Shown piece by piece: positions 20,857-42,196 of a DNA stretch of 64,000 bases. The position numbers and the translations under genes were made by a program. Position 1 is the stretch's first letter. Each line of letters starts with the position of its first letter. The notes below the pieces were generated by a model. It searched no databases. It was not told the DNA's origin and worked only from the letters and a program-made list of their open reading frames with translations. Origin of the DNA: Humidesulfovibrio mexicanus (GTDB taxonomy: Bacteria > Desulfobacterota > Desulfovibrionia > Desulfovibrionales > Desulfovibrionaceae); the NCBI RefSeq assembly GCF_900188225.1, contig NZ_FZOC01000008.1, positions 1 to 64,000 of the forward strand, given 5' to 3'.

Positions 20857-20916
20857 CAGGGGATGGAGTCCCCCGTGAACCGCGACAACCGCTGACGACT
20901 CCTGCCGCCGACCTCG
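20857..20916 (+). ncRNA. Fluoride riboswitch 1 (crcB motif)
   Basis: The aptamer reads GGGGATGGAGTCCCCC, then AACCGC, then GCTGACGACTCCTGC, the order and conserved bases of the fluoride riboswitch. One base differs from the other copies (GACG for GATG). A terminator follows at 20935 and the helicase gene starts at 20987. Fluoride binding should prevent termination and switch the helicase on. Confidence 0.9.
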
Positions 20917-20934
20917 GCGGTGGGGGCATGCATG

Positions 20935-20966
20935 ACCCACGCCGGATCGGACGTGGGTTTTTCTTT
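20935..20966 (+). terminator. Expression-platform terminator of riboswitch 1
   Basis: ACCCACGCCG pairs with GGACGTGGGT around GATC, followed by TTTTTC. It lies about 20 bases after the aptamer and 20 bases before the helicase start, as expected for transcriptional control. Confidence 0.85.
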
Positions 20967-20986
20967 GCGCAGCGGAGGGCGGCAGC

Positions 20987-22381
20987 ATGCAACGGGATCA
21001 TGACGGACAATTTCGCGCAGCGAGTCAGGGACGCCACCTGGGCGGAACATTCCAGCAAGACACGCCCGGCGTGCGCCTCGACCCGGGGCAGGAGGCGGCC
21101 CTGCGGGACATGCTCGCTGGCCGCAATGTCCACCTCTCCGGTGATCCAGGCACGGGCAAGAGCACGCTGGTCAGGGAGTTCATGGCCAGGAAGGGCGGCG
21201 GCGCGCTCGCGGTCCTCGCGCCCACGGGGGTGGCGGCCATCAATGTGGGCGGTTCGACCATCCACCGTTTCTTCGGGTTTGGCGTCGGCCTGCTTGAGCC
21301 GGACGACCCGGGGTCGGCCGACCCCGTACGCGGCGAGGACGGCCTGAACCGCCGGGAACTGGCCGTCCGCCACGCCGACGTCCTGGTCATCGACGAGGTC
21401 TCGATGCTCCGCTCCGATCTCCTGGCCTGCGTGGACGCCCGCTGCCGGCGCCTCGCCGCCACGGAGCAGGACCGTGACAGGCCTTTCGGCGGCAAGCAGC
21501 TCATCCTCGTGGGCGATTTCGCCCAGCTCCCGCCGGTCGTCCGCGCCGAGGAGCGGGACTACCTGCAAACCCGCTTCGGCGGCGCGTTCGTCTTCAACGC
21601 CGAGGCCTGGCGGGCGGGCGGCTTCCACAACCACCAGCTCACCGCTCCGCACCGCCACGCGGGCGACGGCGCCTTGCAGAAGATCCTGCGCCACGTCCGC
21701 GCCGGGGACCTCGCCGCCCTCGCGCCGGTCAACGCGCGCCTTGGCCTTCGGCCGCCGGAGCACGTGGTCTTCCTCTGCGCCACCAACAGGGCAGCGGACG
21801 ACACCAACGCCATGAACCTGGCCAAACTGCCGACCCACGAAGGGGTGTTCCTGGCGGAAATCGCCGGCCGCATCAGGGAGGGCGACTATCCTGCGCCCGA
21901 GGAACTCCGTCTGAAGCCTGGCGCGCGGGTCGTTTGCTTGGTCAACGAATACGCCGACGGACGATCGGTCTTCGTGAACGGCGACACGGGCAGCGTGACC
22001 GACATCGAGGACGCGGACGGCCCTTCGGGCTGCATCCGCGTTCGGCTCGACAGGGATGGCGGCGCGGTGGAGGTGAAGCGGCACGCCTGGTCCATGAAGG
22101 AGTACAGGTACGACGCGTCGCAGCGGCGCATGGTGGCCGAGGTCGTGGGGACCTACGTCCAGTTCCCGCTCCGGCTCGCCTGGGCGCTCACCGTCCACCG
22201 CAGCCAGGGCATGACCTTGCCGTGCGTCTGCCTGAACCTGGGCGGCCGCTGCTTCGCCCACGGCCAGTTCTACGTGGCCCTGAGCCGCGCCAGGAGCCTT
22301 GCCGACATCTACCTGACAGCGCCCATCCGACCGCAGGACCTGATCATCGACCCGGAAGTGCTCCGGTTCATGGCCGGATAG
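20987..22381 (+). CDS. PIF1/RecD-like superfamily 1B DNA helicase
   Basis: The 464-residue protein has the full set of SF1B helicase motifs: Walker A GDPGTGKST (residues 52-60), VLVIDEVSML near 131 (Walker B), GDFAQLPPV near 177, and ALTVHRSQGMTL with YVALSRARS near the end. PIF1-type enzymes unwind DNA 5' to 3' and clear G-quadruplexes and R-loops. GGAGG lies about ten bases before the ATG. It is the first gene after fluoride riboswitch 1 and its terminator, so fluoride should induce it. I know of no established link between PIF1 helicases and fluoride. Confidence 0.88.
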   Translation: MQRDHDGQFRAASQGRHLGGTFQQDTPGVRLDPGQEAALRDMLAGRNVHLSGDPGTGKSTLVREFMARKGGGALAVLAPTGVAAINVGGSTIHRFFGFGVGLLEPDDPGSADPVRGEDGLNRRELAVRHADVLVIDEVSMLRSDLLACVDARCRRLAATEQDRDRPFGGKQLILVGDFAQLPPVVRAEERDYLQTRFGGAFVFNAEAWRAGGFHNHQLTAPHRHAGDGALQKILRHVRAGDLAALAPVNARLGLRPPEHVVFLCATNRAADDTNAMNLAKLPTHEGVFLAEIAGRIREGDYPAPEELRLKPGARVVCLVNEYADGRSVFVNGDTGSVTDIEDADGPSGCIRVRLDRDGGAVEVKRHAWSMKEYRYDASQRRMVAEVVGTYVQFPLRLAWALTVHRSQGMTLPCVCLNLGGRCFAHGQFYVALSRARSLADIYLTAPIRPQDLIIDPEVLRFMAG

Positions 22382-22459
22382 CCGCGCCCCTCTATCGCGG
22401 GAAATTGCCCACAACGAGACCACCGAAATATGAGAGAAATCCCCGCTGCTCACATGCGT

Positions 22460-22509
22460 CACAAATTTGTGTTGACATTATTCAAGATAAAATTGTAGCA
22501 ATTGCTACA
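22460..22509 (+). promoter_or_regulatory. Promoter with two palindromes upstream of the phosphate transporter
   Basis: TTGACA at 22472-22477 is a consensus -35 box. A 12-bp palindrome CACAAATTTGTG (22460-22471) abuts it upstream. A perfect 16-bp palindrome TGTAGCAATTGCTACA (22494-22509) covers the expected -10 region. This is the layout of a repressor operator over a promoter. The regulator is not known. Confidence 0.6.
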
Positions 22510-22539
22510 TCATTTTGCGAAAAGCAAAAGGGAGGTAGC

Positions 22540-23511
22540 ATGGAACAGTTTCTCACAATCGGCATGGTCGTTTCGGGCCTGTTCTTCGGCTGGACGATCG
22601 GGTCGCACTACACCGGGGCGACCATGGGCATGGCGTATGGAGCCGGCATAATCAAGAAGCCGCTGCACGCCTGTCTGCTCATCGCGTTCTTTGTGATCCT
22701 GGGGGCGACCTTCGAAAGCCACAACGTGGTCACGACCGTGGGCACTGGCATCATCCGGGGCGAGGACATGACCCCGCTGGGGGCCATGGTGATGATGTTC
22801 ACGGCCGCGCTGGTCACGGCCGCGAACACTTGGTTCAAGTGGCCGGTGTCCACCTCGCAGCTGGCCTGTTTCTCCGTGGTGGGCGCGGCCCTGGCCATGG
22901 GTGCGCCGGTGTTCTGGGAGTCGACCATCGTCTTCCTCTTCGCCACCTGGATCGGCACGCCCATCCTGGCGGCCGCCCTGGGCTGGCTCCTGACCAAGCT
23001 CACCGATTCGGTGATGGCGGGACGCTCGGCCGCCGCCGTCAAGGCGCTGGAATGGGGCCTCTTGGCCGCCTGCTGCTACGCGGCCTACACCCTGGGCGCC
23101 AACAACACTGGCAACGCGGTGGGCGTGTTCTTCGGCCTCAAGCTCATGACTCCCATGAAGGCCGGGTTCGTCGGCGGCATCATCATGGCCATCGGCGCGC
23201 TCACCTGGGGCAAGCCCATCCTGGAGAAGGTGGGCAAGGGCATCGTGCAGTTGGACCTGAACATGGGCGTGGGGGCCAAACTGGGCCAGAGCCTCACCGC
23301 GCACCTGGCTGCCTCGCTGGGCTACCCCACGTCCATGAACCAGGCGCTCATCGGCGGGGTGTTCGGCGCGGGCACGGCGCGCGGCATGCAGACGCTCAAC
23401 CGCAAGGCGCTGGAGGAGATCGTCTTCTCCTGGTTCTTCACGCCGGCCCTGGCCGGGCTCATCTCGTTCCTGCTCTACCATCTGCTGTCCATGCTGCTGC
23501 ACGTCCATTGA
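22540..23511 (+). CDS. PiT-family inorganic phosphate transporter
   Basis: This 323-residue membrane protein matches the PiT family of phosphate:cation symporters. It has the inverted-repeat signatures GSHYTGATMGMAYGAG near the start and LGANNTGNAVGVF near residue 190, and about ten hydrophobic segments. ATG 22540 is preceded by GGGAGGTAGC. The gene has its own promoter-operator region, so it need not depend on the riboswitch before the helicase. The UspA gene follows after 28 bases. Possible roles are phosphate supply under stress, or transport of a similar oxyanion. Confidence 0.85.
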   Translation: MEQFLTIGMVVSGLFFGWTIGSHYTGATMGMAYGAGIIKKPLHACLLIAFFVILGATFESHNVVTTVGTGIIRGEDMTPLGAMVMMFTAALVTAANTWFKWPVSTSQLACFSVVGAALAMGAPVFWESTIVFLFATWIGTPILAAALGWLLTKLTDSVMAGRSAAAVKALEWGLLAACCYAAYTLGANNTGNAVGVFFGLKLMTPMKAGFVGGIIMAIGALTWGKPILEKVGKGIVQLDLNMGVGAKLGQSLTAHLAASLGYPTSMNQALIGGVFGAGTARGMQTLNRKALEEIVFSWFFTPALAGLISFLLYHLLSMLLHVH

Positions 23512-23539
23512 CCAAGCGAAACAACGCAAGGAGGTCGTT

Positions 23540-23959
23540 ATGAAGATTCTCATGGCGCTCGACCCGTTCGGCGATTCCAAAAAGGTTCTCGACGAGGCGG
23601 TGAGGCAGGCCAAAAGCCTGAATGCGATGCTGACCATCCTGGCGGTGGCGGAGACGTTCCGGGACACCGAACACGACTACGCCGGCCTGAGCGGGGCGAA
23701 CGAGGCGCTGTTCACGCAGGTCAGACGAAAGGCCGACGCGGTGAAGCTCGAAGCCATCAAACATGGCGTGCCCCCGACCGTCATCGTGGAGGCGGGCCCC
23801 TCCCCGGCGCAGAACATCCTGGACTGGGCCGAGGAGGAGGACGCGGACCTCATCGTCATGGGGCACCGCGAGAAGAAAGGGCTCGACCGGTTCCTGCTGG
23901 GCAGCGTGACGGCCAAGGTCATCGCCCATGCGCAGTGTTCCGTGTTCGTGGTCCGTTGA
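23540..23959 (+). CDS. Universal stress protein (UspA family)
   Basis: The 139-residue cytosolic protein has the single-domain Usp fold: MKILMALDPFGDS at the start and VMGHREKKGLDRFLLGS near the end. The usual nucleotide-binding motif G-x2-G-x9-G-S has Glu in place of the second Gly, so ATP binding may be weaker than in the second Usp of the island (35418). AAGGAGGTC precedes the ATG. It sits 28 bases after the PiT gene and is probably cotranscribed. Usp proteins support survival in metabolic and energy stress. Confidence 0.88.
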   Translation: MKILMALDPFGDSKKVLDEAVRQAKSLNAMLTILAVAETFRDTEHDYAGLSGANEALFTQVRRKADAVKLEAIKHGVPPTVIVEAGPSPAQNILDWAEEEDADLIVMGHREKKGLDRFLLGSVTAKVIAHAQCSVFVVR

Positions 23960-24079
23960 AGCACGCAAGGCGGGAACGCCAGAACGCCGTCCGCAGGCTC
24001 CATCCGGCGTCCCCGCCCGTGTTTCGCCCCGACGGCCGGGGGAAAATCGGGCAGAACCGCAGCACCATGAAAGGACACA

Positions 24080-24559
24080 ATGGAATCAATGACCGCAGCA
24101 ACGATCCTCGCAGCCTTCACCAGGCGGCAGCGCCGATATGTGGTCCTGCCGGACCTTGGCGGCGTGGATTGGGAGAGGCTCGACTACCTCGGCTGGGCGC
24201 ACGCCTCCGGGCACATGGCCTACGTCGTGTACAACCACGAGCGACCCGCCGTGGGACTGGTGCTGCGCCGGACGAAGCTGACCGGGGCGCAGCGCCCCAA
24301 GCTGTGCTCCTGGTGCCTGACAACGCACCAGGGCTGCGGGGTCAACCTGTTCACCGCGCAGATAGGGGACAACGCGGCAAGGGTTCATGGCGACTATGTG
24401 TGCAACGACTTGAGGTGCAGCGCATACGTGCGCGGGCTGTTGCGCACGGGCGTCGGGCAGATGCGCGAAACCATCACTGTGGGCGAGCGCGTCGCCCGCC
24501 TGCGAACCAATGTGGAGCGTTTCATCCGATCCGTGTATGGCGAGGGGGCGCAAGTGTAG
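24080..24559 (+). CDS. FBP-type (EF-G-binding, FusB-like) treble-clef zinc protein
   Basis: The 159-residue protein resembles the C-terminal treble-clef zinc-finger domain of elongation-factor-G-binding proteins. Visible features are RPKLCSWC, then GDYVCNDLRCSAYVRG, giving four cysteines at the expected spacing. FusB and FBP proteins free EF-G from stalled ribosomes. An N-terminal TRRQRRYVVLPDL stretch also fits the family. AAAGGA precedes ATG 24080. It lies in the unit after PiT-UspA. A role in translation protection under stress is inference. Confidence 0.75.
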   Translation: MESMTAATILAAFTRRQRRYVVLPDLGGVDWERLDYLGWAHASGHMAYVVYNHERPAVGLVLRRTKLTGAQRPKLCSWCLTTHQGCGVNLFTAQIGDNAARVHGDYVCNDLRCSAYVRGLLRTGVGQMRETITVGERVARLRTNVERFIRSVYGEGAQV

Positions 24560-24700
24560 CCGTTGCTGCTCGCCGGGCTTTGCCGAAGCGGCGGAGGAAT
24601 CGCGCGGAACATGGCGGCCAAGGGTGGACTTTCAGCGCGGTTGGAGGCATAATTCATTCATGCAGACGAGTTCGCCGGACGATGAACATACAGGCCGACT

Positions 24701-25237
24701 ATGAAGTGGATATTCCTCTCCTACAGTATGCCGACCAAGCCCTCGAAGTACCGGGTGCAGGCGTGGCGGCAGCTCAAGCGCCTGGGGGCGGTGAACTTCC
24801 AGAACGTTTGGGCCATCCCCCATGCCGCAGACAAGCTCAAGGACTTGGAGCGGCTGGCCGAGGACATCCGCACCTGGAAGGGAGAGGCGTTCCTGACCGT
24901 CGGCAAGCCGCTGACCGAGGACGACGAAAAACGGCTGCTGGCCGCGGCGTCTGCGGCGAGCGACGAGGAGTACGGCGAACTGCTCCACGTGGCGGAGGAC
25001 TTCCTCAAGGAAATCGAGATGGAAATTGAGAGGAAGAACTTCATCTTCGCCGAGGTGGAGGAAAACGAAGAAGAACTCGCCAAGATCAAAAAATGGCTCA
25101 CGAAGGTTGAGAAGCGCAGCGTCTGCGATGCCCCGTTGCGCAAGGTGACCATGGAGAAGATCCGCCTGTGCGACAAGGCGCTTGAGGACTTCTCCCAGAT
25201 GGTCTTCGACCACCTCCACGCCAAGGGCAGCGCATAG
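24701..25237 (+). CDS. ChrB N-terminal-domain protein (chromate-resistance-like)
   Basis: This 178-residue protein matches the N-terminal domain of chromate resistance protein ChrB: WIFLSYSMPTKPSKYRVQAWRQ, then LKRLGAVNFQNVWAIP. The remainder is a charged helical region that ends at 178 residues, while full ChrB proteins are near 300 residues with a second domain. It could be a regulator or a stand-alone short form. No chrA lies nearby. It is the last gene before riboswitch 2. Confidence 0.75.
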   Translation: MKWIFLSYSMPTKPSKYRVQAWRQLKRLGAVNFQNVWAIPHAADKLKDLERLAEDIRTWKGEAFLTVGKPLTEDDEKRLLAAASAASDEEYGELLHVAEDFLKEIEMEIERKNFIFAEVEENEEELAKIKKWLTKVEKRSVCDAPLRKVTMEKIRLCDKALEDFSQMVFDHLHAKGSA

Positions 25238-25296
25238 GGGATCGCCGGACTCCGGCACTACGGAGAGAAGAGCGCAAGACGATCCCGACCCATGAC

Positions 25297-25352
25297 CAGA
25301 GGGGATGGAGTTCCCCTTGAACCGCGACAGACGCTGATGACTCCTGCTGCCC
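25297..25352 (+). ncRNA. Fluoride riboswitch 2 (crcB motif)
   Basis: The aptamer reads GGGGATGGAGTTCCCC, AACCGC, then GCTGATGACTCCTGC, an exact match to the fluoride-riboswitch consensus as I know it. It precedes a terminator at 25381 and an 11-gene run that includes crcB and enolase, both of which are known members of this regulon in other bacteria. Confidence 0.95.
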
Positions 25353-25380
25353 GATACTGGCGGTAGGATCATTTTGTGAA

Positions 25381-25410
25381 ACCCACGCCAGACGAGCGTG
25401 GGTTTTTTGT
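25381..25410 (+). terminator. Expression-platform terminator of riboswitch 2
   Basis: ACCCACGC pairs with GCGTGGGT around a 6-base loop and is followed by a T tract (TTTTTTGTT). It is nearly identical to the terminator of riboswitch 1. Confidence 0.9.
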
Positions 25411-25436
25411 TGTGCAACACTCCGAGGAGTCGACAT

Positions 25437-26663
25437 ATGCCCCACAAGCTTCCCAAACCAGTCCGCAACCTGGGCTGGATCAGCTTCTTCACCGACTTCG
25501 CGTCGGAAATGGTCTATCCCGTTGTGCCTCTGTTTCTTGCGACGGCTCTGGGCGCGCCCGTTGCGGTCCTTGGCCTCATCGAGGGCATGGCCGAGGCCAT
25601 CGTCAGCGTCATGAAGGGCCTCTCCGGCTGGCACAGCGACAAGGTCGGCAAGCGAGTCCCTTACGTCCGCCTGGGTTACGGAATGGCTGCCCTGTCCAAG
25701 CCCCTCCTGGCCCTGGCCTATGCGTGGCCCGTGGTGTTCTTGGCCCGCGCCGTGGACCGCCTGGGCAAGGGCCTGCGCACCACGGCCCGGGACGCCATGA
25801 TCGCGGACGCCGTGGATTGCTCGATCGCGGGCCGGGCCTTCGGCTTCCATCGCATGATGGACACCGGCGGAGCCATCGTCGGCGTGCTGTTCGCCCTGCT
25901 GCTGCTCAAGTTCCTGCCGGGCAAGTACCGGCTCATTTTCCTGATTGCCGGCGTGCCGGGGCTGGCTGCGGTGTGGCTTACCTTCCGGCTGCGGGAGCTA
26001 CAAAAGGCCGGTGAACATCGTATGGTCTGCCCCGCGCCGGCGCATGCGCCGCAACCCCGCGAGGAAGCTGCTGTCCAGGCCGGACCTCTGGGCTTCTCCC
26101 CTGCCTATTGGTGCACCCTGGGCCTGCTGATGCTCTTCGCCTTCGCCAACTCCAGCGACGCGCTGCTCTTGCTGCGGGCCAAGAACCTGGGCTGGGACGA
26201 CACCCAGGTGATCCTGGGCTATCTGCTGTTCAACCTGACCTACGCAGCATCCGCCTATCCCCTGGGGGTCCTGAGCGACCGCATCGGACGCTGGCGCATG
26301 ATCATCACCGGTTGGACGCTGTATTCCGCTGTGTACTTCGGCTTTTCAGCGCTGGACGCGCAGGCGGCTTGGTGGCTGTTCCCGCTCTATGGCCTGACCA
26401 TGGGCCTCACCGAGGGCGTGGGCAAAGCGCTCATCAGCGGCCATGTGCCGGTGCTGCGCAAAGGGACGGCGCTCGGGGTGTTCTACATGGGCCTCGGCTT
26501 CACGGCCCTGGTGAGCAGCGTGGTGGCTGGCCTGCTGTGGGACCGTGTCGGCCCGTCCGCGCCGTTCCGCCTGGGCGGCGCCGTGGCCCTGGCCGCCGCG
26601 GTGATGGGACTGTTCCTTGCCCCACGCTTGGGCAAGGCGGCGGCAGCCGAGGGAGGCAAGTAG
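25437..26663 (+). CDS. MFS transporter, first of a pair
   Basis: The 408-residue protein has about 12 hydrophobic segments, typical of the major facilitator superfamily. Cytosolic loop motifs are GWHSDKVGKRVPYVRLG after segment 2 and GVLSDRIGRWRM in the second half. GAGGA precedes ATG 25437; the frame upstream overlaps the terminator and is not used. It is the first gene behind riboswitch 2 and is followed after 2 bases by a second MFS gene. It may export fluoride-linked toxic metabolites or act as a proton-coupled antiporter. MFS proteins of unknown substrate are known in fluoride regulons. Confidence 0.85.
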   Translation: MPHKLPKPVRNLGWISFFTDFASEMVYPVVPLFLATALGAPVAVLGLIEGMAEAIVSVMKGLSGWHSDKVGKRVPYVRLGYGMAALSKPLLALAYAWPVVFLARAVDRLGKGLRTTARDAMIADAVDCSIAGRAFGFHRMMDTGGAIVGVLFALLLLKFLPGKYRLIFLIAGVPGLAAVWLTFRLRELQKAGEHRMVCPAPAHAPQPREEAAVQAGPLGFSPAYWCTLGLLMLFAFANSSDALLLLRAKNLGWDDTQVILGYLLFNLTYAASAYPLGVLSDRIGRWRMIITGWTLYSAVYFGFSALDAQAAWWLFPLYGLTMGLTEGVGKALISGHVPVLRKGTALGVFYMGLGFTALVSSVVAGLLWDRVGPSAPFRLGGAVALAAAVMGLFLAPRLGKAAAAEGGK

Positions 26664-26665
26664 CA

Positions 26666-27868
26666 ATGCGATCCGAAGTAAAATCAGCGCATGGCGCGCC
26701 AACTCCCGGCACGGCCAAGGCGCAGGCCGTCCACTTCGTTCTCGCCATCGGCATCGTCAGCCTGTTCGCGGACATGACGCACGAGGGCGCGCGGAGCATC
26801 GTCGGCCCCTTCCTCGCGGTCCTGGGCGCCAGCGCCACGGTCGTCGGCGTAGTCAGCGGGCTCGGTGAGCTCCTGGGCTACGCCGTGCGCTTCTTCTCCG
26901 GCCGGCTGGCCGACAGGACCGGGCAATACTGGACCCTGGCCATCGTCGGCTACTTCGTGAATCTTCTGGCCGTCCCGTTGCTGGCCCTGGCCGGGAACTG
27001 GGAATATGCGGCAGCGCTCCTGTTCATTGAGCGTACGGGCAGGGCCCTGCGCCAGCCCCCTCGCGACGTCATGCTCTCGTTCGCAGGCAGGCGCATGGGC
27101 GTGGGCTGGGCCTTCGCGATGCATGAGGTCATGGACCAGACCGGCGCCACCATCGGCCCCCTGCTCATGGCCACGGTGATGTACTGGCGCAGCGACTATC
27201 CGCTGAGCTTCGGGCTGCTGCTCATCCCGGCGATCCTGTCCCTGACCGCGCTGCTGTTCGCCCGACAGGCGTTTCCCCGGCCCAGGGAGCTTGAGACCAT
27301 CACTCCCGAACTCGACACGCGCGGAATGCCGCGGGCGTTCTGGCTCTTCCTGGCGGCGACGGGCTGCGTGGCCGCCGGGTTCGCTGACTATCCCCTGATC
27401 GCCTTCCATTTCCAGAAGACCGCGAGCATCCGGCCGGAACTCATTCCCGTCCTCTACGCCCTGGCCATGTGCGCGCACGCGCTGGGCGCCCTGCTCTGCG
27501 GCTGGCTGTACGCCCGCCTGGGTGTCAGAAGCGTCGTCGCCACGGCCCTGGTCGCCGTGCCCATGGCCCCGCTCGTCTTTCTGGGCGGCCCGGCAGCGGC
27601 CACAGTCGGCGCGGCCATCTGGGGCCTCGGCATGGGGGCACAGGAATCCCTGCTCAAGGCGGCTGTGGCGACCATGGCTCCGGTGCAACGGCGCGGCACG
27701 GCCTTCGGCGTCTACAACATGAGCTTCGGCATCGCCTGGTTCGCGGGCAGCGCGCTCATGGGCGTGCTGTACGACGCCTCCATCCCGTGGCTGGTGGCGT
27801 TCTCCGTCGCCGCGCAGGCGCTGGCGGTCCCTCTGCTGGCGCGCGCAAGCGCACGGATCGGGACATGA
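26666..27868 (+). CDS. MFS transporter, second of a pair
   Basis: The protein has 400 residues and about 12 hydrophobic segments. A short hydrophilic N-terminus precedes them, with GRLADRTGQYWTL after the second segment and FIERTGRALRQPPRDVML later. It differs clearly from the first MFS protein, so it is not a recent duplicate, but both begin with a similar ISFFTDF/VSLFADM segment. ATG 26666 lies 2 bases after the upstream stop. The tight spacing suggests translational coupling, and the two could form a heterodimer or handle related solutes. Confidence 0.85.
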   Translation: MRSEVKSAHGAPTPGTAKAQAVHFVLAIGIVSLFADMTHEGARSIVGPFLAVLGASATVVGVVSGLGELLGYAVRFFSGRLADRTGQYWTLAIVGYFVNLLAVPLLALAGNWEYAAALLFIERTGRALRQPPRDVMLSFAGRRMGVGWAFAMHEVMDQTGATIGPLLMATVMYWRSDYPLSFGLLLIPAILSLTALLFARQAFPRPRELETITPELDTRGMPRAFWLFLAATGCVAAGFADYPLIAFHFQKTASIRPELIPVLYALAMCAHALGALLCGWLYARLGVRSVVATALVAVPMAPLVFLGGPAAATVGAAIWGLGMGAQESLLKAAVATMAPVQRRGTAFGVYNMSFGIAWFAGSALMGVLYDASIPWLVAFSVAAQALAVPLLARASARIGT

Positions 27869-35421: not shown

Positions 35422-35834
35422 TCAAAAAGCTGATTGTCGCCTACGACGCCTCGCCCCAGTCCGAAAAGGCGTTCGATTTCGGCCTGGGTCTCGCCGCGAA
35501 GTTCGCGGCGGAACTCATCGTCTGCTCCGTCGCCACCCTGCCCGAGCCTCCGGTGAGCGTGGAGATATCGGCCGTGCTGGACCACGCGGAGGAGTTCTAC
35601 AAGAAGCACTTCACCCGGCTGGCGGCCCGAGCAGCGGCGGGCGGCATCACCCCGCGCTTTGAGCTCAAGGTAGGCCACCCGGCGGAGCAAATCATCCTCC
35701 TGGCCGAGGAGGAAGGGGTGCAGATGATCGTAATGGGGCACCGGGGCAACACACTCGTGGAGAAGTGGATGCTCGGCTCCGTGTGCCGGCGGGTGATCAA
35801 CTACGCCAACTGCACCGTGTCCGTGGTCCGCTGA
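35418..35834 (+). CDS. Universal stress protein (UspA family)
   Basis: The 138-residue protein is a single-domain Usp with a complete nucleotide-binding signature, GHRGNTLVEKWMLGS (G-x2-G-x9-G-S), and a C-terminal NCTVSVVR strand. Its ATG overlaps the antiporter stop (ATGA), so translation is coupled. Fusions and neighbours of Usp with CPA2 antiporters are common; here it may regulate the antiporter by nucleotide binding. It differs from the first Usp of the island at 23540. Confidence 0.9.
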   Translation: MIKKLIVAYDASPQSEKAFDFGLGLAAKFAAELIVCSVATLPEPPVSVEISAVLDHAEEFYKKHFTRLAARAAAGGITPRFELKVGHPAEQIILLAEEEGVQMIVMGHRGNTLVEKWMLGSVCRRVINYANCTVSVVR

Positions 35835-35946: not shown

Positions 35947-36417
35947 ATGTTCACGCTACGGATACCGGGATACGGGGAGCTGGAAATCGAGCATGTGGTC
36001 TTCGACTACAACGGCACCCTCGCCGTGGACGGCGAACTGCTGCCCGGCGTGGCCGAAGCGCTGGAGGAGCTGGCCCGGCTGGTCACGGTGCATGTCCTGA
36101 CCGCGGACACCTTCGGCCTTGCCGCGGCGCAGCTTAAGGGCGTTCCGTGCCGGCTTTCGATCCTGCCCCCGGAGACGCAGGACAAGGCCAAGTCGGCCTA
36201 TGTCCACACGCTGGGCAACGCCGTGACGGCCTGCGTCGGCAACGGCCGGAACGACAGGCTGATGCTCGCGGCGGGCCGGCTGGGGATCGCCGTCCTGGGC
36301 GGCGAGGGCGCGGCGGTGGAGACCCTGTCGGCGGCGGACATCGTGGTCACGGACATCCTGTCCGCTCTGGGGCTGTTCACCCATCCGCTGCGGCTCACGG
36401 CGACCCTGCGCTCGTGA
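35947..36417 (+). CDS. HAD-like protein, soluble P-type-ATPase-domain-like
   Basis: This 156-residue protein shows the HAD phosphatase fold, with the nucleophile Asp20 in VFDYNGTLA. The second acidic residue of the usual DxDGT is Asn22. That variant is found in proteins related to the phosphorylation domain of P-type ATPases. Later motifs are LTADTFG (Thr motif) and CVGNGRNDRLML (the GDGxND-like metal site). AGGAGGCACTCC precedes the ATG. It is the last gene of the 11-gene run and ends 15 bases before the stop of the oppositely oriented dynamin gene. Its substrate is unknown. Confidence 0.8.
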   Translation: MFTLRIPGYGELEIEHVVFDYNGTLAVDGELLPGVAEALEELARLVTVHVLTADTFGLAAAQLKGVPCRLSILPPETQDKAKSAYVHTLGNAVTACVGNGRNDRLMLAAGRLGIAVLGGEGAAVETLSAADIVVTDILSALGLFTHPLRLTATLRS

Positions 36418-36432: not shown

Positions 36433-38097
36433 TCAACGGCGTCGCCGGCCAGGCCCGGTGACGCTGGGATGACCGGCGAGCAGCATCAGGCCCCGCATGT
36501 GCGCGCGATCCTCCTCTTGGCTGACCAGCGCGCTGCGCACGCCGTCGACCTTGAGCGCGTAGCGCCGCATGTCCGCCGCGAGCCGGTCCAGGCTCCCGGC
36601 TTGGCCGAGCAGCAGACGGTGGGCGGCCTCGTGGTGGTCTTCTAAACGGCGGAGCACAAGCTGGAAGTGGGGCATGCAGACATCCGGGACGAAGCGGTCG
36701 TCCGTCTTAATCATGGCCAGAAGCTCCTCCACGGCGGCCCGCTCCGCCAAGGCCTGGACGCGGCAGACCTCGCAGGCGTCCTCCCGCGGGCGGAGCCTCT
36801 CGACGGCCTCGGAGAGGGGAGCGCCCTCCTCCGGCAGGGTGGCGGCCGTACGCAACCCCGCCGCGAGGCGCTCCAGCACCTCGGGATAGGCGAGACATGT
36901 CCCCTGCGGGCTGGCCATGGCCTGGTACACCCAGGTATGGAAGTCGCACAGGCCGCCACGCGCGGCCAGGTCGGCGCGCGCGTCCGGGTTTGACGCGATG
37001 GCGTTCTGGAACCCGCAAAGGAAGTCGAAAACCTCCCGTTCCACCCTTTGGCAGACCGCGCACGCCGCGAACCAGCCCGGCCGTTCCGGGGCAAGGGCCG
37101 CAGCGGAGCCAACGGCGGACATGGCGGCGGGCGCGTCCCCCGTCGAGGCCGTGAAGAGGCTCCGGCGCAGCTCCCGCAGCCGCCGGAGTTCAGGCGCCGC
37201 CTGCGGCGTCGCGGCGAGCAGGGACTCGATACGCGCGCACATGCGGTCGAGAAAGGCCGTCCGCCGCTCCTCAAGCATGAACCGCTCCAGATTCGCCAGG
37301 AGTGCCGGCAGGCCGCTGGCCTCCCACCCCGCCGCGTCGGACCGCGCCGTGGCCTCCAGGGCCTGCCGGGCCGAGACGGAGAATATCTGCGGCGTCGGCA
37401 AAACCTCCGCGCCGGCCAACTGGTCGCGGATGTGTGCGAGGATTTCCGCCCGCTCCGCAGCGGACACCGTGTCGTGCTTGTTCACCGCGAGGAACGCCCG
37501 GCCCGGCGTCAAGGGGCCGGCCCGCAGCAGCCGCAGCTCCTCCTCGGAAAGCGGGCTCTCGAAGCTGGTCACCAGCAGCAGGGCGTCCGCCTCCGGCAGG
37601 AAGGCTTCGGTGGTGCGCGTGTTCGCAACCACGGACGAGCCCAGGCCGGGCGTGTCGATGAGCCGGAAGCCCAGGCGGAGCGGCTCCGAGGGAAGCTGCA
37701 CCCGGGCCTCCCGCACGCCGCGCGCGTTCTCCGGGTTGCCGCACTGCGTGACGTAGGCCGGGAGTTCCTCGATATTGATGCGCAGCGGCAGCCGACCGCG
37801 GCCGTAATCGATGACAACCTGCTCGCCGCTGCCGTAGGCCATAGTGGTGATGACCGAGGTCAGCGGCACCACGCCAACCGGCAGGCGCGTCGTGCCGAGC
37901 ATGGCGTTCATCAGCGAGGTCTTGCCGCGGTTGAAGCGGCCGACCACGGCCAGATTGAAGCGGTCCTCGGCCAAGCGGGCGAAGAGTTCGCGGAACGAAG
38001 CCTCCTCCCCATCTGGCCCAGCCTGCGCAAAGGGCAGCGCCGTCCGCAGGATGGCCGCCAGCTCGAACTTGGCTCGCTCGTATTCCCGCAGGTTCAT
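36433..38097 (-). CDS. Dynamin-family GTPase-like protein
   Basis: The 554-residue protein has a GTPase domain like bacterial dynamins: P-loop GRFNRGKTS (53-61), a switch segment LTSVITTM, DTPGLGS (G3) and NKHD (G4). The C-terminal half is helical and holds cysteine pairs (CAVC near 315, CEVC near 450) with Cys/His residues further on, which suggests metal binding. Bacterial dynamins remodel or protect membranes. ATG 38097 overlaps the stop of the upstream HEAT gene. It is the last gene of the run behind riboswitch 3. Confidence 0.82.
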   Translation of the reverse strand: MNLREYERAKFELAAILRTALPFAQAGPDGEEASFRELFARLAEDRFNLAVVGRFNRGKTSLMNAMLGTTRLPVGVVPLTSVITTMAYGSGEQVVIDYGRGRLPLRINIEELPAYVTQCGNPENARGVREARVQLPSEPLRLGFRLIDTPGLGSSVVANTRTTEAFLPEADALLLVTSFESPLSEEELRLLRAGPLTPGRAFLAVNKHDTVSAAERAEILAHIRDQLAGAEVLPTPQIFSVSARQALEATARSDAAGWEASGLPALLANLERFMLEERRTAFLDRMCARIESLLAATPQAAPELRRLRELRRSLFTASTGDAPAAMSAVGSAAALAPERPGWFAACAVCQRVEREVFDFLCGFQNAIASNPDARADLAARGGLCDFHTWVYQAMASPQGTCLAYPEVLERLAAGLRTAATLPEEGAPLSEAVERLRPREDACEVCRVQALAERAAVEELLAMIKTDDRFVPDVCMPHFQLVLRRLEDHHEAAHRLLLGQAGSLDRLAADMRRYALKVDGVRSALVSQEEDRAHMRGLMLLAGHPSVTGPGRRRR

Positions 38098-38948
38098 GGC
38101 CGCGCTCGCAGCCAATCCGCCATTTCGAACTGGAGGAAGCAGGAGGCCTTGGGAAAGAGGCTGGCCAGCCTGCGCACAGCGGCCCGGCGCAATCCCTCGT
38201 CCTTGCTGTCCAGCCAGAGGCGGCTTGCACGCGCGGCGATCTCCAGGTCGCTGGAGCGTAGCAGCGGCGCGAACTGCTCCCACGCGCCCGGGGGCGGACC
38301 CAGCTCCGCAAGCAGCCGCAGCACGCCGCGCCTGCGGATGCGGCTGGTTGGCGTCTCCTCCCGGGCAGACGGCCAGGGGCGCAGGGCGGCTTCCAGCAGG
38401 GCCGGCAGGGCGATGGCCCCGGCCTTGCGCAGGGCCTCCTCGGCAAAGGTCCGGGAGATGCTGTCGCCCAGGGCGGCGATGAACACGGGGATGGCCTCGA
38501 CGCGCCGGAACTCCCCCACCGCGTCGATCGCTCCGGGCGTGGCCTTGCGGCGCAGGAGCGCCAGAAGAACTCGATAGACCTTGTCGTCGCGCCAGCGCGC
38601 CAGCAGCCGCGCCGCAGTGTTCACCACCGCCTCCTCGCCGTAGGCGTCCACGGGGTCAGGAATGGCCATCTCGCCGGTGAGGTACTCCATCAGTACGTCC
38701 TTCGCGCCAAGTGCGGCCAGGGTCTCCACGGCCCGCTGCCGGGGCTGGAACACGCCGCTGGGCCGGCCCTGCATGAGAAAGGTGCGCAGCGGGGCCACAG
38801 CGCGCTCGCCGCAGGCCGCCAGCAGTTCAGCCGCGCGCGGGCCATCGGCCAAGGAGTCCAGGTCGCGCACCAACTCCGCCACCTCGGCATCGGAGCAGCC
38901 ATGCCGCGCGCGTGTCGGTTCAGACGCCGCCATTCGTCGCCTCGCCAT
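38094..38948 (-). CDS. HEAT-repeat-like protein
   Basis: This 284-residue protein consists of helical repeats of about 30-40 residues (for example RAAELLAACGERAVAPLRTF and RKAGAIALPALLEAAL), like HEAT or PBS-lyase-type repeats. It probably acts as a protein-binding scaffold. It overlaps the MutS-like gene upstream by 29 bases and the GTPase gene downstream by 4 bases, so the three should be made together. ATG 38948 is taken; ATG 38933 is a close alternative. No catalytic motif was seen. Confidence 0.75.
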   Translation of the reverse strand: MARRRMAASEPTRARHGCSDAEVAELVRDLDSLADGPRAAELLAACGERAVAPLRTFLMQGRPSGVFQPRQRAVETLAALGAKDVLMEYLTGEMAIPDPVDAYGEEAVVNTAARLLARWRDDKVYRVLLALLRRKATPGAIDAVGEFRRVEAIPVFIAALGDSISRTFAEEALRKAGAIALPALLEAALRPWPSAREETPTSRIRRRGVLRLLAELGPPPGAWEQFAPLLRSSDLEIAARASRLWLDSKDEGLRRAAVRRLASLFPKASCFLQFEMADWLRARP

Positions 38949-40530
38949 CTGCCGCCTCGCTGCTGGTTACGGCCCCGGCCGGGGCGGTCTGCTCCGGCGT
39001 CGCGCCCGTCGCGCCGAAGACCTGCCGGTACAGATCCTCGCCAAAGCTCGTGCGCAACGGCCCGCCATCACGCAGGCGGAAGGTCCTGCTCCCGTCCGCC
39101 ATCCGTTCCGCCCGCAGGAACAGAAAATGATCCGAGTTGCGGGCGTGGAACCAGTCCGCCAGCTCGAACAGGTGGGTGACGCAGACCACCCGCGCGCCGC
39201 CGACCACCAGCGCCGTGATGATCTGCCTGCCGATCTCCGCCCCCTCCCGCTCGTTGGTGGCGGCGAAGGACTCGTTGAGCAGGATCAGGGGATGCCGGGC
39301 GATGTGGTCGACGATCCCGCTCATGCGTGAGAACTCCTCGTCCAGCTTGCCGCTGACGAGGCTGGCGTCCTCCTCGCGCCGGAAATGCGTGAACACGCCG
39401 TCGCACAGGCTCGCGGCGAAGGACTCGGCCGCAACGGGCATGCCGCACTGGAGCATCAGCTGCGCCAGACCGATGCTGCGCAGGAAGGTCGACTTGCCCC
39501 CCTGGTTCGCGCCGGTCACCACCACCAGCGCCTTGCCGCCGGCATTCACGTCGTTGCCGACGGCCGGCCGACCCATGCGCAGCGCGAGGCAGACATCGTA
39601 AAGCCCCTGGAAGGACAACTCGCGTCCGCCGACCGCGAGCGGCGCGCCCAGGCGCCAGGGGCAACCCAAGGCGGCGAGCCGCTCGCACAGGTTCAGGCAG
39701 CCGACGTGGAACGCCAGCTCGTCGTGCAGCGAGACATAGAAGCTGCAAATGTTGTCCCTGGCCTGCGCGAGAACCTTGGCGGCCTGGCTGACAGCACGGC
39801 TCTGGATCTCCTCAATGGCCTGATGCCCGGCCTCGTCGCGCGGGTGGATGGTGAAGCTGCTCGGCAGGGGCTGAATGTCCTGGAACAACGAGACAAGCCA
39901 GGCGAGCAGCCGGTGCAGCCACGTCTTGCGGTTCCCCCCCGGCGCCCTGTGCAGGACGTAGTCGCGCCCCTTGTTGCCAGGGCCGAGGCCGGCGCTCAAC
40001 AATGCTCCGTGAGGGAACTTGAGCTGCCGCAGGTGTTCCGCCGCCGCCGCGAAGAAGATGTCGTCGAGCTCCGCGTCCACCCGCTGGAAGAACGCCCGCC
40101 ACCCCGGCGCGGAGAACTTCGCGCCATGCGCCGTGGAGAAGAGCCGCAGCTTCTTCAGCAGGCCGAGGAACTCCGTCATGTGCTCCAGCGCGCTCCAGAG
40201 GGTGAGCCGCGTCGAGCCCGGCAGGTAGCCCCAGTACCGCTTCATGGACTGCGCCACCCCTTCCGCCGCCAAGGCGAGGAGTTCCCGCGCAAGTTCCGGC
40301 TGACGCAGGCAGTCCGCGAGCACGCCCTGCCGGTACAGCACGATGTCCGGCGTCGCGCCCACGCCAGCCAGGACCACCCGCTTGGCCACGGCCAGGATGT
40401 GCTCGTCGCCCTGCGCCATGGCGGCGAACAGGATGTCCAGCTGGAGGTCGCTGACCAGCGCGTCGGCCTGCCAGGGCAACTCGGCCTGGAGGTCGAAGGG
40501 CCGGTCAGGAAAGAGCAGGTGCGCGTCCAT
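38920..40530 (-). CDS. MutS-like ATPase lacking the mismatch-recognition domains
   Basis: The 536-residue protein has a MutS core/lever-like helical region followed by the MutS ATPase domain. The latter has Walker A TGANQGGKST near 339 and a Walker-B-like LILLNESFAAT. The N-terminal mismatch-binding and connector domains of full MutS (about 850 residues) are absent, so ordinary mismatch repair is unlikely. The Walker B aspartate is Asn here, as in the neighbouring paralogue. MutS-type genes are known members of fluoride regulons. It overlaps the upstream paralogue by 26 bases. Confidence 0.85.
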   Translation of the reverse strand: MDAHLLFPDRPFDLQAELPWQADALVSDLQLDILFAAMAQGDEHILAVAKRVVLAGVGATPDIVLYRQGVLADCLRQPELARELLALAAEGVAQSMKRYWGYLPGSTRLTLWSALEHMTEFLGLLKKLRLFSTAHGAKFSAPGWRAFFQRVDAELDDIFFAAAAEHLRQLKFPHGALLSAGLGPGNKGRDYVLHRAPGGNRKTWLHRLLAWLVSLFQDIQPLPSSFTIHPRDEAGHQAIEEIQSRAVSQAAKVLAQARDNICSFYVSLHDELAFHVGCLNLCERLAALGCPWRLGAPLAVGGRELSFQGLYDVCLALRMGRPAVGNDVNAGGKALVVVTGANQGGKSTFLRSIGLAQLMLQCGMPVAAESFAASLCDGVFTHFRREEDASLVSGKLDEEFSRMSGIVDHIARHPLILLNESFAATNEREGAEIGRQIITALVVGGARVVCVTHLFELADWFHARNSDHFLFLRAERMADGSRTFRLRDGGPLRTSFGEDLYRQVFGATGATPEQTAPAGAVTSSEAADGEATNGGV

Positions 40531-42052
40531 GTCCCAGGCGCTCCTTGATGCGCGTGTATGTCAGGCCGTACTTCTCCGCGATGGACACGGCGTAGGCCAG
40601 GCCGTCCGGGCGACGGCGCACGATCCGGTACGTCCGCTGCGCAGGATTGTCGGGCTCCACTGTGCTGACCATGCTCACCGCTTTCTCACCCAGCTCCGCC
40701 AGCTCCTCGATGAAGGTCACCCAGACGCAACGCACGTCGAGATTCAGCAGCGTTGCGGCGATGCGCCCGCTCAACGTGAGCGCGTCGCGGAATGTGGTGG
40801 AGGCGAATATCTCGTTGATGATGACGAGGCTGCCGGGCGTCGCGGCCTTCAGGATGGCGTGGACCCGGACGAGGTCGTCCTGCAGCTTGCCGTGCAGGGT
40901 GTCGAGGTTCTCCTCGCGCTCGAAGTGGGTGAAGATGCGGTCAAAGACACAAAGCCTGGCTTCACGGCCGGGGACGGGCATTCCCAGGCTCGCGAGGTGG
41001 TGGATCTGGCCCACGGTGCGCGCGTAGGTCGTCTTGCCGCCCTGGTTCGGGCCGGTGACCACCAGCATGCGCTCGCCGCCTTGCAGCAGGAAGTCGTTGC
41101 ACACGGGCGTGCCGCCCTCGGCCTTGAGCTTGCGGGCGAGCGCGAGGTCGAAGGTCTGGAGGCAGCGCGAGCCGTCCGGGGAGGCGGTCATGACGGGATA
41201 GCAGAAAGGGGTGTCCTCGCCGGGCACGCCGGCGACGAGGTCGCCATAGGCGAGACAGAACTGCGCCTCCCGTTCGACGTTCGCAATGCCGGCGTCCAGG
41301 AACTCCTCGTGCCCGGCGCGGAACTCGGCCGCGTCCCGGAACTCCCGCGGGTTGTTCGCCGCCACGAGGGCCAGGATGCTCGCCTCGATGTGGTTCACTT
41401 CCACGAAGTCGCTGAACGTGAACTCGTACTTGTGCTGCGGCCCGAAGGGCCTGAAGATGGCGAAGGTCGCCTCGACCTCGCGCGTGAGGTCTGGCTGGCC
41501 GGCGGCGTTGCGCACGACGATGTAGTGGCCGGTCTGGACGCAGTACCGGATGCGTTCCAGCGCCATGCGGATCCTGCGCGCATCGTCGTGCATGGCGACG
41601 AAGGCTTCGGAGGCGGCGTACCCGTTCAGGTAGGCGGTCAGCCGCGCCATTCCGGCCGAGGCGCAGCCGGCGCGGGCGAGACGCTCGGCCAGTTCCAGCA
41701 CGCCCCCGCAATAGTCCGCCACGGCGTCGAGGAACAGGCGATCCTTCTGCAGCGCGTTGGCCATCTTTCCGATGCGCTCCAGCGCCAAGCGCACGGCGTT
41801 GAAGCGCTCCGAGAACGTCCGGAACGCCGAGGATACGGCCTCGCGCTCCATGTCCCGCATCACGTCCTGACGGAACCGGATGGTTTCGATGTCGCCCAGG
41901 CTGCGGCGGAAGTATTCGTGCAGGCGGTACCGCGCCCTGCCTTTGACCAGCGCGACCTCCAGGGCGTCGAGGCCGAGGTCGTGGAAGCTCTCCGACTCGC
42001 GGGGCTCTTCCAGGGGCACTGCCTGGACATTCGGATACAGGATGCTGATCAT
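40505..42052 (-). CDS. MutS-like ATPase lacking the mismatch-recognition domains
   Basis: This 515-residue protein is a paralogue of the gene at 38920, with Walker A TGPNQGGKTT near 332, VFDRIFTHFEREENL, and Walker-B-like LVIINEIFAST. Again the mismatch-binding domain is missing and the Walker B Asp is Asn. ATG 42052 is used because the aptamer and terminator of riboswitch 3 lie just upstream; the longer frame to 42253 would run through them. It is the first gene of the run. The two paralogues, overlapping by 26 bases, may form a heterodimer as MutS proteins do. Confidence 0.87.
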   Translation of the reverse strand: MISILYPNVQAVPLEEPRESESFHDLGLDALEVALVKGRARYRLHEYFRRSLGDIETIRFRQDVMRDMEREAVSSAFRTFSERFNAVRLALERIGKMANALQKDRLFLDAVADYCGGVLELAERLARAGCASAGMARLTAYLNGYAASEAFVAMHDDARRIRMALERIRYCVQTGHYIVVRNAAGQPDLTREVEATFAIFRPFGPQHKYEFTFSDFVEVNHIEASILALVAANNPREFRDAAEFRAGHEEFLDAGIANVEREAQFCLAYGDLVAGVPGEDTPFCYPVMTASPDGSRCLQTFDLALARKLKAEGGTPVCNDFLLQGGERMLVVTGPNQGGKTTYARTVGQIHHLASLGMPVPGREARLCVFDRIFTHFEREENLDTLHGKLQDDLVRVHAILKAATPGSLVIINEIFASTTFRDALTLSGRIAATLLNLDVRCVWVTFIEELAELGEKAVSMVSTVEPDNPAQRTYRIVRRRPDGLAYAVSIAEKYGLTYTRIKERLGHGRAPALS

Positions 42053-42080
42053 GGCCGTCACCGCTTCTTTGGGAAGTGCA

Positions 42081-42117
42081 AAAACAAAAAACTCCCGCCC
42101 ATTGCCTGGACAGGAGT
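42081..42117 (-). terminator. Expression-platform terminator of riboswitch 3
   Basis: On the minus strand ACTCCTGTCC pairs with GGGCGGGAGT and is followed by TTTTTTGTTTTT. The left arm is also the 3' end of the aptamer (ACTCCTG), so fluoride binding and termination exclude each other directly. In copies 1 and 2 the terminator is separate from the aptamer. Confidence 0.88.
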
Positions 42118-42159
42118 CATCAGCTTCAGCGGAAGCGGTTAGAGGCGAACTCCTTCGCC
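42111..42159 (-). ncRNA. Fluoride riboswitch 3 (crcB motif)
   Basis: The minus strand reads GGCGAAGGAGTTCGCC, TAACCGC, then GCTGATGACTCCTG, the conserved parts of the fluoride aptamer, with GAAGG in place of GATGG. A hairpin TTCCGCTGAA is inserted before the last conserved block. It lies between a good promoter and the first MutS-like gene, so it should switch the MutS-like, HEAT and dynamin genes on with fluoride. Confidence 0.93.
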
Positions 42160-42168
42160 TTGTTGGAG

Positions 42169-42196
42169 AGTATAGCCTATGTCCGGCGGGAGTCAA
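42169..42196 (-). promoter_or_regulatory. Sigma-70 promoter of the MutS-like run
   Basis: On the minus strand TTGACT (42196-42191) and TATACT (42174-42169) are spaced by 16 bases. Each box differs from consensus at one base. Transcription would start near 42162, just before the fluoride aptamer. Confidence 0.8.

Follow-up and report, generated by a model that had tools for sequence, protein, structure and literature searches.

A fluoride island with three riboswitches in Humidesulfovibrio mexicanus and its conserved pair of MutS-like ATPases

The first 64,000 nucleotides (nt) of contig NZ_FZOC01000008.1 of Humidesulfovibrio mexicanus (positions 1-64,000, here called the window, in whose coordinates all positions are given) hold a block of transport, stress and ATPase genes together with three fluoride riboswitches of the crcB-motif class (Rfam RF01734). 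Fluoride is widely toxic, and the best understood defences against it are export and the over-production of enzymes. An earlier note on this DNA had read the block as a fluoride-response island and stressed the number of its aptamers; our analysis confirms the island and indicates that its most interesting content is a conserved, so far little-described ATPase module of MutS-like and dynamin-like proteins, not the aptamer count. The aptamers were searched for with cmscan against Rfam 15 (RF01734, gathering threshold 34 bits), which gave three matches in the 64 kb window, with E from 9e-13 to 9e-10:

RS1 aptamer, 20850-20911, plus strand, RF01734 at 46.6 bits
RS2 aptamer, 25292-25353, plus strand, RF01734 at 55.8 bits
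RS3 aptamer, 42168-42104, minus strand, RF01734 at 48.4 bits

All three lie above the cut-off, at the sites where the earlier note had placed aptamers, with its starts falling 5-7 bases inside the matches. In the rest of the 3.52 Mb genome, further matches were found at C2:459747 (54 bits) and at C1:138719 (22.5 bits, below the cut-off), with three of the four significant matches of the genome clustered in 21.3 kb.

Behind RS3, on the minus strand, four genes follow in the order MutS-like A, MutS-like B, HEAT, dynamin-like:

MutS-like ATPase A (515 amino acids), 40505-42052, minus strand, PF00488 at 1.8e-20, Walker-B residue Asn413
MutS-like ATPase B (536 amino acids), 38920-40530, minus strand, PF00488 at 1.4e-16, Walker-B residue Asn419
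HEAT-repeat protein, 38094-38948, minus strand, PF13646 at 3.8e-4, below the cut-off
Dynamin-like GTPase with a DUF6062-like C-terminal region (554 amino acids), 36433-38097, minus strand, PF00350 at 1.1e-20 (74.8 bits against a cut-off of 27) and PF19538 at 1.2e-3, below the cut-off

Because their coding ends overlap by 26, 29 and 4 bases, these four genes probably form one operon. The label "MutS-like ATPases" holds in so far as both proteins carry the MutS_V domain (PF00488), but they are not the mismatch-repair enzyme; they form a separate, truncated pair, additional to the MutS and MutS2 that the genome encodes on another contig (C10). A and B are full-length paralogues (hhalign probability 100 over 454 columns); with the genome's own MutS and MutS2 the ATPase region alone can be aligned. 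The mismatch-repair MutS profiles score 54-86 bits on the pair against cut-offs of 480 and 642, the MutS2 profile TIGR01069 scores 66.7 and 68.5 bits against 400, and the KamC profile NF052383 (508 positions) scores 64.1 bits for B and 40.9 for A against 300, in the ATPase region only; Pfam gives no Smr match in either protein, and the best match of the pair among PDB sequences is MutS2 (7vuf). Ahead of Walker A lie 333 and 339 residues in the pair, compared with 334 in the genome's own MutS2 and 664 in its MutS open reading frame (ORF), of which the first ~45 may precede the true start. Going by these lengths, the pair is without the N-terminal half used for mismatch recognition, as is MutS2. 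An AlphaFold model of A has a mean predicted local distance difference test score (pLDDT) of 68.8, falling below 50 around Walker A; its top Foldseek matches in the PDB are MutS-beta and MutS, and the whole-chain superposition is poor (template modelling score, TM, by query 0.33-0.48 over 50 rows). Selenocysteine in A, suggested by in-frame TGA codons in several orthologues, was rejected: in the alignments the only stop within A falls at residue 509, at the extreme C-terminus beside the start of B (L092, L110), and none is internal.

What sets the pair apart is its Walker-B motif, which reads NE and not DE. Asn occupies the site in all 80 relatives of A that we analysed and in 76 of 77 relatives of B (one has Asp; three of the 80 loci have no aligned site in B). 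For comparison, we took 32 loci, namely the top 30 matches to the KamC profile in 20 carrier genomes plus the own MutS and MutS2; Asp is found in 31 of these (MutS, MutS2 and KamC-type proteins), and the 32nd, L295, is the fluoride pair itself and has Asn. The spacing from Walker A to Walker B is 79 in A, in B and in the own MutS, and the Asn can therefore be placed at D693 of E. coli MutS (numbering via the PDB alignment). A D693N mutant of the E. coli protein is said to show weakened coordination of Mg2+. The same residue is changed in PDB entry 3k0s, the title of which reads "D693N mutant".

A scan of named genomes with an alignment of A gave at least 578 relatives, and the best 80 loci, many of them from metagenome-assembled genomes (MAGs), were analysed. 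Riboswitches in these loci were detected with a covariance model built from 24 aptamers and counted at E ≤7.3e-4. A fluoride riboswitch is present in 62 of the 80 loci, and in 48 it lies on the same strand no more than 700 nt upstream of A; B adjoins A in 79. When Rfam was run on 19 of the 80, it confirmed 11 of 12 model-positive loci (the failure being a partial match in L233) and none of the seven model-negative ones. By record title, the carriers include Thermoanaerobacter, Caldatribacterium, Paraburkholderia, Anaerolineae, Chthoniobacter, Desulfacinum, Labrys and Pelotomaculum, and three archaeal MAGs; among the latter, the Thermoplasmata locus (L240) has a riboswitch directly upstream (Rfam, 42.5 bits), the Bathyarchaeota locus (L235) has riboswitch matches on the other strand, and the Woesearchaeota locus (L180) has none. 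We further drew on 395 sampled genomes from the phylum, of which 158 match RF01734 at E 0.001 and 153 above the cut-off. Clear orthologues of A (E ≤2.7e-85) occur in 15 of the 395, and all 15 are riboswitch-positive (Fisher p 7e-7); counting every genome with a MutS-like A, weaker ones included, 18 of 19 are positive. Two of the weaker genomes, G210 and G445, also match B in their loci L101 and L102, at 44% and 52% identity. Genes already reported behind the crcB motif include mutS and genes for formate hydrogen lyase and for the transport of K+ or Cl- (Weinberg et al. 2010, PMC2864571); from the 80-locus survey, we infer that this "mutS" is the truncated pair.

The dynamin-like protein at the end of the RS3 unit shows P-loop, DTPG and NKxD motifs in alignment and matches the LeoA profile at 5.2e-16. 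Its AlphaFold2 model has a helical C-terminus (predicted TM score, pTM, 0.58), and the top Foldseek matches are BDLP, IniA and mitofusin, with a TM by query of 0.29-0.40. Across the phylum sample, dynamin-like matches (E ≤1e-12) occur in 80 of the 395 genomes, 75 of which are riboswitch-positive (Fisher p 8e-30); the five negative genomes are G291, G366, G434, G452 and G490. Most of these matches share only the G domain with the window protein; a few relatives (L029, L178, L203, L204 and L225) match over the full length and have the DUF6062-like end. The order in L203 is riboswitch, dynamin-like gene, MutS-like A, MutS-like B, and proteins consisting of DUF6062 alone stand near riboswitches in L036, L057 and L072. 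The HEAT protein has a relative in L029, at 8.5e-6 likewise below the Pfam cut-off.

Which genes follow fluoride riboswitches in general was counted in loci chosen by the riboswitch alone, where 119 matches to the covariance model built from 24 aptamers represent 115 unique riboswitches, the rest being duplicates or falling under an overlapping locus (over all loci together, 150 unique riboswitches of 164 matches). The 90 regions of this census are a non-random set, combining the family list, the best-scoring rows and the multi-copy genomes among those listed, and the simple procedure that picks the first ORF may err in GC-rich DNA. The first ORF is dynamin-like at 34 of the 115 riboswitches, CPA2 at 17, CrcB at six and DUF190 at five; MutS-like A, the AAA+ ATPase, MFS transporter 1 (major facilitator superfamily) and enolase follow at three each, and the HAD-like protein, PIF1 (the window's own) and MFS transporter 2 at one each. 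At 38 riboswitches the first ORF matches no window protein. Of the first genes that could be recognised in the phylum loci, the dynamin-like GTPase is the most frequent.

Fluoride islands with several switches are found repeatedly in the phylum. At least three riboswitch matches, with a maximum of eleven, occur in 19 of the 158 riboswitch-positive genomes, and the number of aptamers is not unique to H. mexicanus. G292 has five. Four of them lie within 12 kb of the start of one contig, in the order switch, HAD-like, HEAT, dynamin-like, MFS, switch, enolase, switch, CPA2, Usp (universal stress protein), CrcB, DUF190, switch, dynamin-like; the fifth precedes MutS-like A-B close to the end of a second contig. 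G388 carries seven in 15.4 kb of contig C58, on both strands (L046/L118), of a genome total of 11. RF01734 matches occur in 16 of the 119 genomes of the family.

Returning to the window, a U-tailed hairpin lies 3' of each aptamer, found behind RS2 and RS3 by a consensus scan and behind RS1 by folding (ViennaRNA), and this bears out the earlier suggestion that each aptamer has its own terminator:

RS1 expression platform, 20899-20963, plus strand, a hairpin from the aptamer 3' strand and then a U-tailed terminator hairpin, from ViennaRNA and absent from the consensus-scan list
RS2 expression platform, 25342-25406, plus strand, a hairpin at 25342-25368 and a terminator at 25378-25406, from consensus scan and folds
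RS3 terminator hairpin, 42090-42118, minus strand, its 5' arm overlapping the aptamer 3' strand, from consensus scan and folds
Sigma-70-like promoter TTGACT-16-TATACT, 42169-42196, minus strand, abutting RS3, from the consensus scan (10 of 12)

No promoter was found just ahead of RS1 or RS2 in the consensus scan. The platforms differ in design: the RS3 terminator directly overlaps the aptamer, and RS1 and RS2 each have two hairpins, of which the first overlaps the aptamer 3' strand and the second, U-tailed, is of similar sequence, a design that recurs in members of the family. The aptamers differ as well. In columns that are at least 90% conserved, RS2 has no deviation and RS1 and RS3 have one each: in GCUGAUG, RS1 carries C where 117 of 119 aligned matches carry U, and in the conserved GAUG, RS3 carries A and is the only one of the 119 to deviate from U. 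We take the changed positions of RS3 and RS1 to be U7 and U41 of the T. petrophila structure, where the phosphates presumably touch the Mg2+ ions around the fluoride. Because terminators and aptamer positions differ between the three, the switches may respond at different thresholds; the staged or separately tuned responses that the earlier note read from three aptamers in 21 kb stay conjectural.

RS2 is followed by 11 genes:

MFS transporter 1, 25437-26663, plus strand, PF07690 at 1.4e-37 (on 25398-26663)
MFS transporter 2, 26666-27868, plus strand, PF07690 at 8.8e-24
AAA+ ATPase with an N-terminal region of its own, 27919-29406, plus strand, PF00004 at 2.4e-42
CrcB/Fluc fluoride channel, 29412-29786, plus strand, PF02537 at 6.1e-24 and TIGR00494 at 89.6 bits against a cut-off of 80.45
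DUF190 protein with four CBS matches, 29815-31059, plus strand, PF02641 at 3.7e-36 and PF00571 at 3.3e-52
DSP/PTP-like phosphatase, 31056-31637, plus strand, PF22741 at 1.9e-11
Cyclopropane fatty acid synthase (Cfa), 31700-32815, plus strand, PRK11705 at 1e-169, above the cut-off
Enolase, second copy, 32902-34167, plus strand, PF00113 at 3.8e-112
CPA2 cation/proton antiporter, 34210-35421, plus strand, PF00999 at 4.5e-38
Universal stress protein 2, 35418-35834, plus strand, PF00582 at 4.8e-32
Small HAD-like protein (156 amino acids), 35947-36417, plus strand, assigned to HAD by eye and without a Pfam match

The gene names given in the earlier note are confirmed across the block by Pfam or NCBIfam, except for HEAT, which stays below the Pfam cut-off, and for the "PAN-type" label of the AAA+ protein, where the support covers the AAA domain. 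The enolase is an extra copy, since the genome holds another on C5 (two in all). Full-length matches to the AAA+ protein number four among 99 family genomes, its own included, and each of the four belongs to a riboswitch locus; in one further genome, G020, the match is confined to the ATPase domain. A homologue of the HAD-like protein is the first gene behind the riboswitch in L029, and Cfa, the phosphatase and the HAD-like protein each recur in a handful of fluoride-riboswitch loci. As a separate observation, a Cfa gene stands directly behind the MutS-like pair in the Paraburkholderia/Caballeronia loci L202 and L207, again placing Cfa with fluoride switches. Elsewhere in the H. mexicanus genome, the fourth strong riboswitch (C2:459747, L012) lies ahead of an MFS gene 81% identical to MFS transporter 1, and behind that gene comes a segment that matches residues 1-79 of the AAA+ protein at 65% identity.

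RS1 is followed by a helicase gene, and four more genes stand between it and RS2:

PIF1-like helicase (464 amino acids), 20987-22381, plus strand, PF05970 at 2.9e-23, starting 75 nt past the RS1 aptamer
PiT/PHO4 phosphate transporter, 22540-23511, plus strand, PF01384 at 9e-46
Universal stress protein 1, 23540-23959, plus strand, PF00582 at 4.3e-32
FBP_C treble-clef protein, 24080-24559, plus strand, PF16571 at 6.9e-36
ChrB N-terminal-domain protein (ChrB_N), 24701-25237, plus strand, PF20229 at 3.7e-33, recurring in some fluoride-riboswitch loci

The run PiT-Usp-FBP_C-ChrB_N has no riboswitch directly upstream. PiT, FBP_C, ChrB_N, the DUF190-CBS protein, the HAD-like protein and the DUF6062-like end of the dynamin-like protein are additions to the earlier note. 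FBP_C, a family that presumably includes the EF-G-binding protein FusB, has no relative in the 80 riboswitch-chosen loci L006-L085. The earlier note had set the helicase, AAA+, HEAT and dynamin-like proteins, Cfa and the phosphatase apart as not known to be established members of the fluoride regulon. PIF1 does not recur; AAA+, HEAT and the dynamin-like protein are found again in riboswitch loci of other genomes, and Cfa and the phosphatase in a few. PIF1 homologues are absent from loci L006-L085 and from the 80 MutS-like loci, and no riboswitch was found in the ~1.5 kb flanks of the 14 best of 46 other places with PIF1 relatives. At 1e-30 the helicase was found only in its own genome among 119 family genomes, to which the phylum search added the family genomes G426 and G462; in plasmids there are 28 records, all below 60% identity, the best listed at 37.7%. 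As a control for the enrichment of the other genes, PIF1 relatives occur in 45 of the 395 phylum genomes, and 16 of the 45 are riboswitch-positive compared with 158 of 395 overall (p 0.79), which is no enrichment. On these results from the loci, flanks and genomes covered, PIF1 was rejected as a recurrent member of the fluoride regulon, and its link to a riboswitch looks like a singular case.

The island was probably acquired horizontally, as suggested by a shift in guanine-plus-cytosine (GC) content, a recombinase and an intron match on either side, mosaic identities to the best matching island and absence from related genomes. The GC fraction is 0.676 in the island and 0.639 and 0.592 in the flanks; a large serine recombinase (Resolvase, Recombinase and Zn-ribbon domains; 16766-18502, plus strand) lies to the left, and a group II intron domain match (44593-44691, minus strand; 40.5 bits against an Rfam cut-off of 40) to the right. 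Identities to L020 are 92% for CPA2, 90% for Usp, 85% for enolase and 84% for PiT, and 67% for CrcB, 63% for MFS transporter 2, 59% for DUF190, 58% for AAA+, 55% for the phosphatase and 54% for ChrB_N. The phylum sample includes 16 further genomes of the family, two from the same genus, and in none of them was the MutS-like pair or the dynamin-like gene found.

Beyond the island, a Tlde1-domain protein (PF10908 at 1.5e-13; 43027-43674, minus strand) lies to the right of RS3, beside an ORF without a Pfam match (42330-43046). Further on, a C5 cytosine methylase, an unassigned ORF and a GHKL-ATPase protein stand in a row (48794-53792, minus strand) and resemble a modification or defence cluster. 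At the left end of the window (1009-8604, plus strand), a tight run of genes for a cytidylyltransferase, a PfkB/cytidylyltransferase, a radical SAM-SPASM protein, an E1/transketolase pair and a glycosyltransferase looks like a surface-polymer or lipid-headgroup pathway.

Taken together, we are fairly confident in the following reading: the block is a fluoride-resistance island, probably acquired, whose three riboswitches would gate three transcription units, and the RS3 unit would encode a MutS-like heterodimeric clamp adapted to fluoride. By analogy with the riboswitch class, fluoride entering as hydrogen fluoride (HF) would bind and stabilise the aptamers and prevent termination, so that transcription could proceed. 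CrcB, and perhaps the MFS transporters, would then export fluoride, while the CPA2 antiporter and presumably Cfa would counter the acid load of the entering HF. Enolase is a fluoride target, and the extra copy would compensate for the inhibited one. The presence of PiT would fit with phosphate transporters noted alongside fluoride riboswitches (PMC9971707). A and B, finally, would act as a heterodimeric MutS-fold clamp able to work amid Mg-nucleotide-fluoride complexes, with the HEAT and dynamin-like proteins as partners; candidate substrates are nucleic-acid junctions, stalled ribosomes and inhibited enzymes. Fluoride blocks NTPases as metal-fluoride-nucleotide complexes, and because the changed Walker-B residue helps to hold the Mg2+ of the nucleotide, we see a heterodimeric clamp-type ATPase tuned to work under fluoride as the likeliest identity of the pair, with the Asn at the Mg2+ site as the main clue.

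Several points weigh against this reading. The replacement of Asp by Asn could simply slow ATP hydrolysis and be irrelevant to fluoride; the shortness ahead of Walker A is common to the genome's own MutS2; and the model of A is of moderate confidence and superposes poorly. Eighteen of the 80 MutS-like loci have no riboswitch by the model, some of them truncated where the contig stops; the 80 were the top scorers among at least 578 relatives, and many of the model matches are weak (down to 22 bits), with Rfam checks in 19. At least four of the 80 are shared with the phylum sample (L181=G221, L191=G226, L196=G423, L228=G300), and the p-values from that sample overstate independence, as the genomes are related. 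Weaker matches to MutS-like A occur in four genomes outside the 15 (G133, G184, G210 and G445), of which three are riboswitch-positive and G133 is not. The RS2 unit is taken as a single transcript on the basis of gene spacing, and the changes in RS1 and RS3 could weaken sensing. In RS1 and RS2, the 3' strand of the first hairpin could pair with the 5' arm of the second as an antiterminator, for which the support is weak: in a duplex test of matched against shuffled pairs, p was 0.039 and the own pair beat the median in nine of 16 loci, L015 being mis-parsed. This test left out RS3, L012 and L007, in none of which a second U-tailed hairpin was seen by eye, as well as L009 and the two near duplicates L011 and L021. 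When the aptamer strand is held unpaired, the second hairpin still appears in the predicted minimum fold.

Known partners of fluoride riboswitches include CrcB, enolase, Usp, antiporters and phosphate genes (PMC11139923, PMC5533749, PMC9971707; enolase in riboswitch operons in PMC5533749 and PMC11139923), and mutS is on the 2010 list (PMC2864571); the island might be an ordinary fluoride regulon of export, pH control and replacement enzymes with a DNA-repair MutS, the remainder being passengers. We regard this as unlikely, as the pair is not MutS and the dynamin-like gene stands first at 34 of 115 riboswitches, too frequently for a passenger. It is also doubtful that RS1 and RS3 are decaying copies and poor sensors, with RS2 alone working: the substitutions at positions where 117 and 118 of 119 matches have U would agree with decay, yet both aptamers score well over the Rfam cut-off and have kept promoter or terminator features.

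For the pair itself, a tentative alternative that deserves some weight is a DNA or ribosome clamp of the MSH4-MSH5 or MutS2 type, which would shield nucleic-acid transactions when Mg-dependent enzymes are inhibited. The MutS fold found by Foldseek, MutS2 (7vuf) as the best PDB sequence match, and the absent N-terminal recognition half, with a length before Walker A as in the own MutS2, speak for such a clamp, while the restriction of alignable sequence to the ATPase region and the lack of an Smr match in Pfam speak against it. We think it rather improbable that the pair is a KamC-like reactivase freeing fluoride-inhibited enzymes such as enolase. KamC is similar in size, and its profile, named for a MutS-type reactivase, gives weak matches to A and B, and enolase is found in 24 of the 80 MutS-like loci, adjoining the pair in some (L171, L193, L235); however, the KamC and KamC-like proteins of L276 and L277 retain the Walker-B Asp, and the KamC-profile matches are limited to the ATPase region. 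A bolder version of the adapted clamp, to which we give little credence, is that the "mutS" of 2010 is a fluoride-dedicated heterodimer of bacteria and archaea, in which both Walker-B Asp residues were given up so that MgF or AlF mimics cannot lock it, and which, with the dynamin-like, AAA+ and HEAT proteins, would dismantle fluoride-jammed machines (ribosomes, DNA complexes, enzymes).

The Walker-B change, the spread of the pair and the association with a dynamin-like protein were not found in the literature searched, which was limited to open-licence texts and is weak evidence of absence. In distant lineages, fluoride switches are followed by a conserved pair of ATPases and frequently by a dynamin-like GTPase, which points to a further layer of fluoride defence, so far labelled as DNA repair or not found in that literature. 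The Walker-B Asn signature leads to a clear prediction for biochemistry, for which the numerous loci linked to riboswitches offer ready test systems. Fluoride tolerance also limits engineered strains that degrade organofluorines (PMC11139923).

Compared with known systems, the three aptamers agree with the fluoride riboswitch class in their scores (46.6-55.8 bits) and terminator-type platforms, but differ in that three occur in 21 kb, in the rare substitutions of RS1 and RS3 and in the second hairpin of RS1 and RS2. The island shares riboswitch-linked crcB, eno and usp with that of Enterobacter cloacae FRM, which is described as acquired (PMC5533749); the island proteins scanned here include no pyrophosphatase (PPase) or phosphoglycerate mutase, and the island has instead the MutS-like pair, dynamin-like, HEAT, AAA+, Cfa and DUF190 proteins and three riboswitches. 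With MutS, MutS2, MSH4-MSH5 and KamC the pair has in common the MutS_V ATPase domain and a MutS-like predicted fold, and with MutS2 its shortness before Walker A, whereas the 515 and 536 amino acid proteins appear to be without the N-terminal recognition half, show no Smr match and have the Walker-B Asn in both members. The dynamin-like protein, with its Dynamin_N domain, its top Foldseek matches and its LeoA-profile match of 5.2e-16, resembles BDLP, IniA and LeoA; it differs from them in a C-terminal part resembling DUF6062, which is found alone near riboswitches elsewhere.

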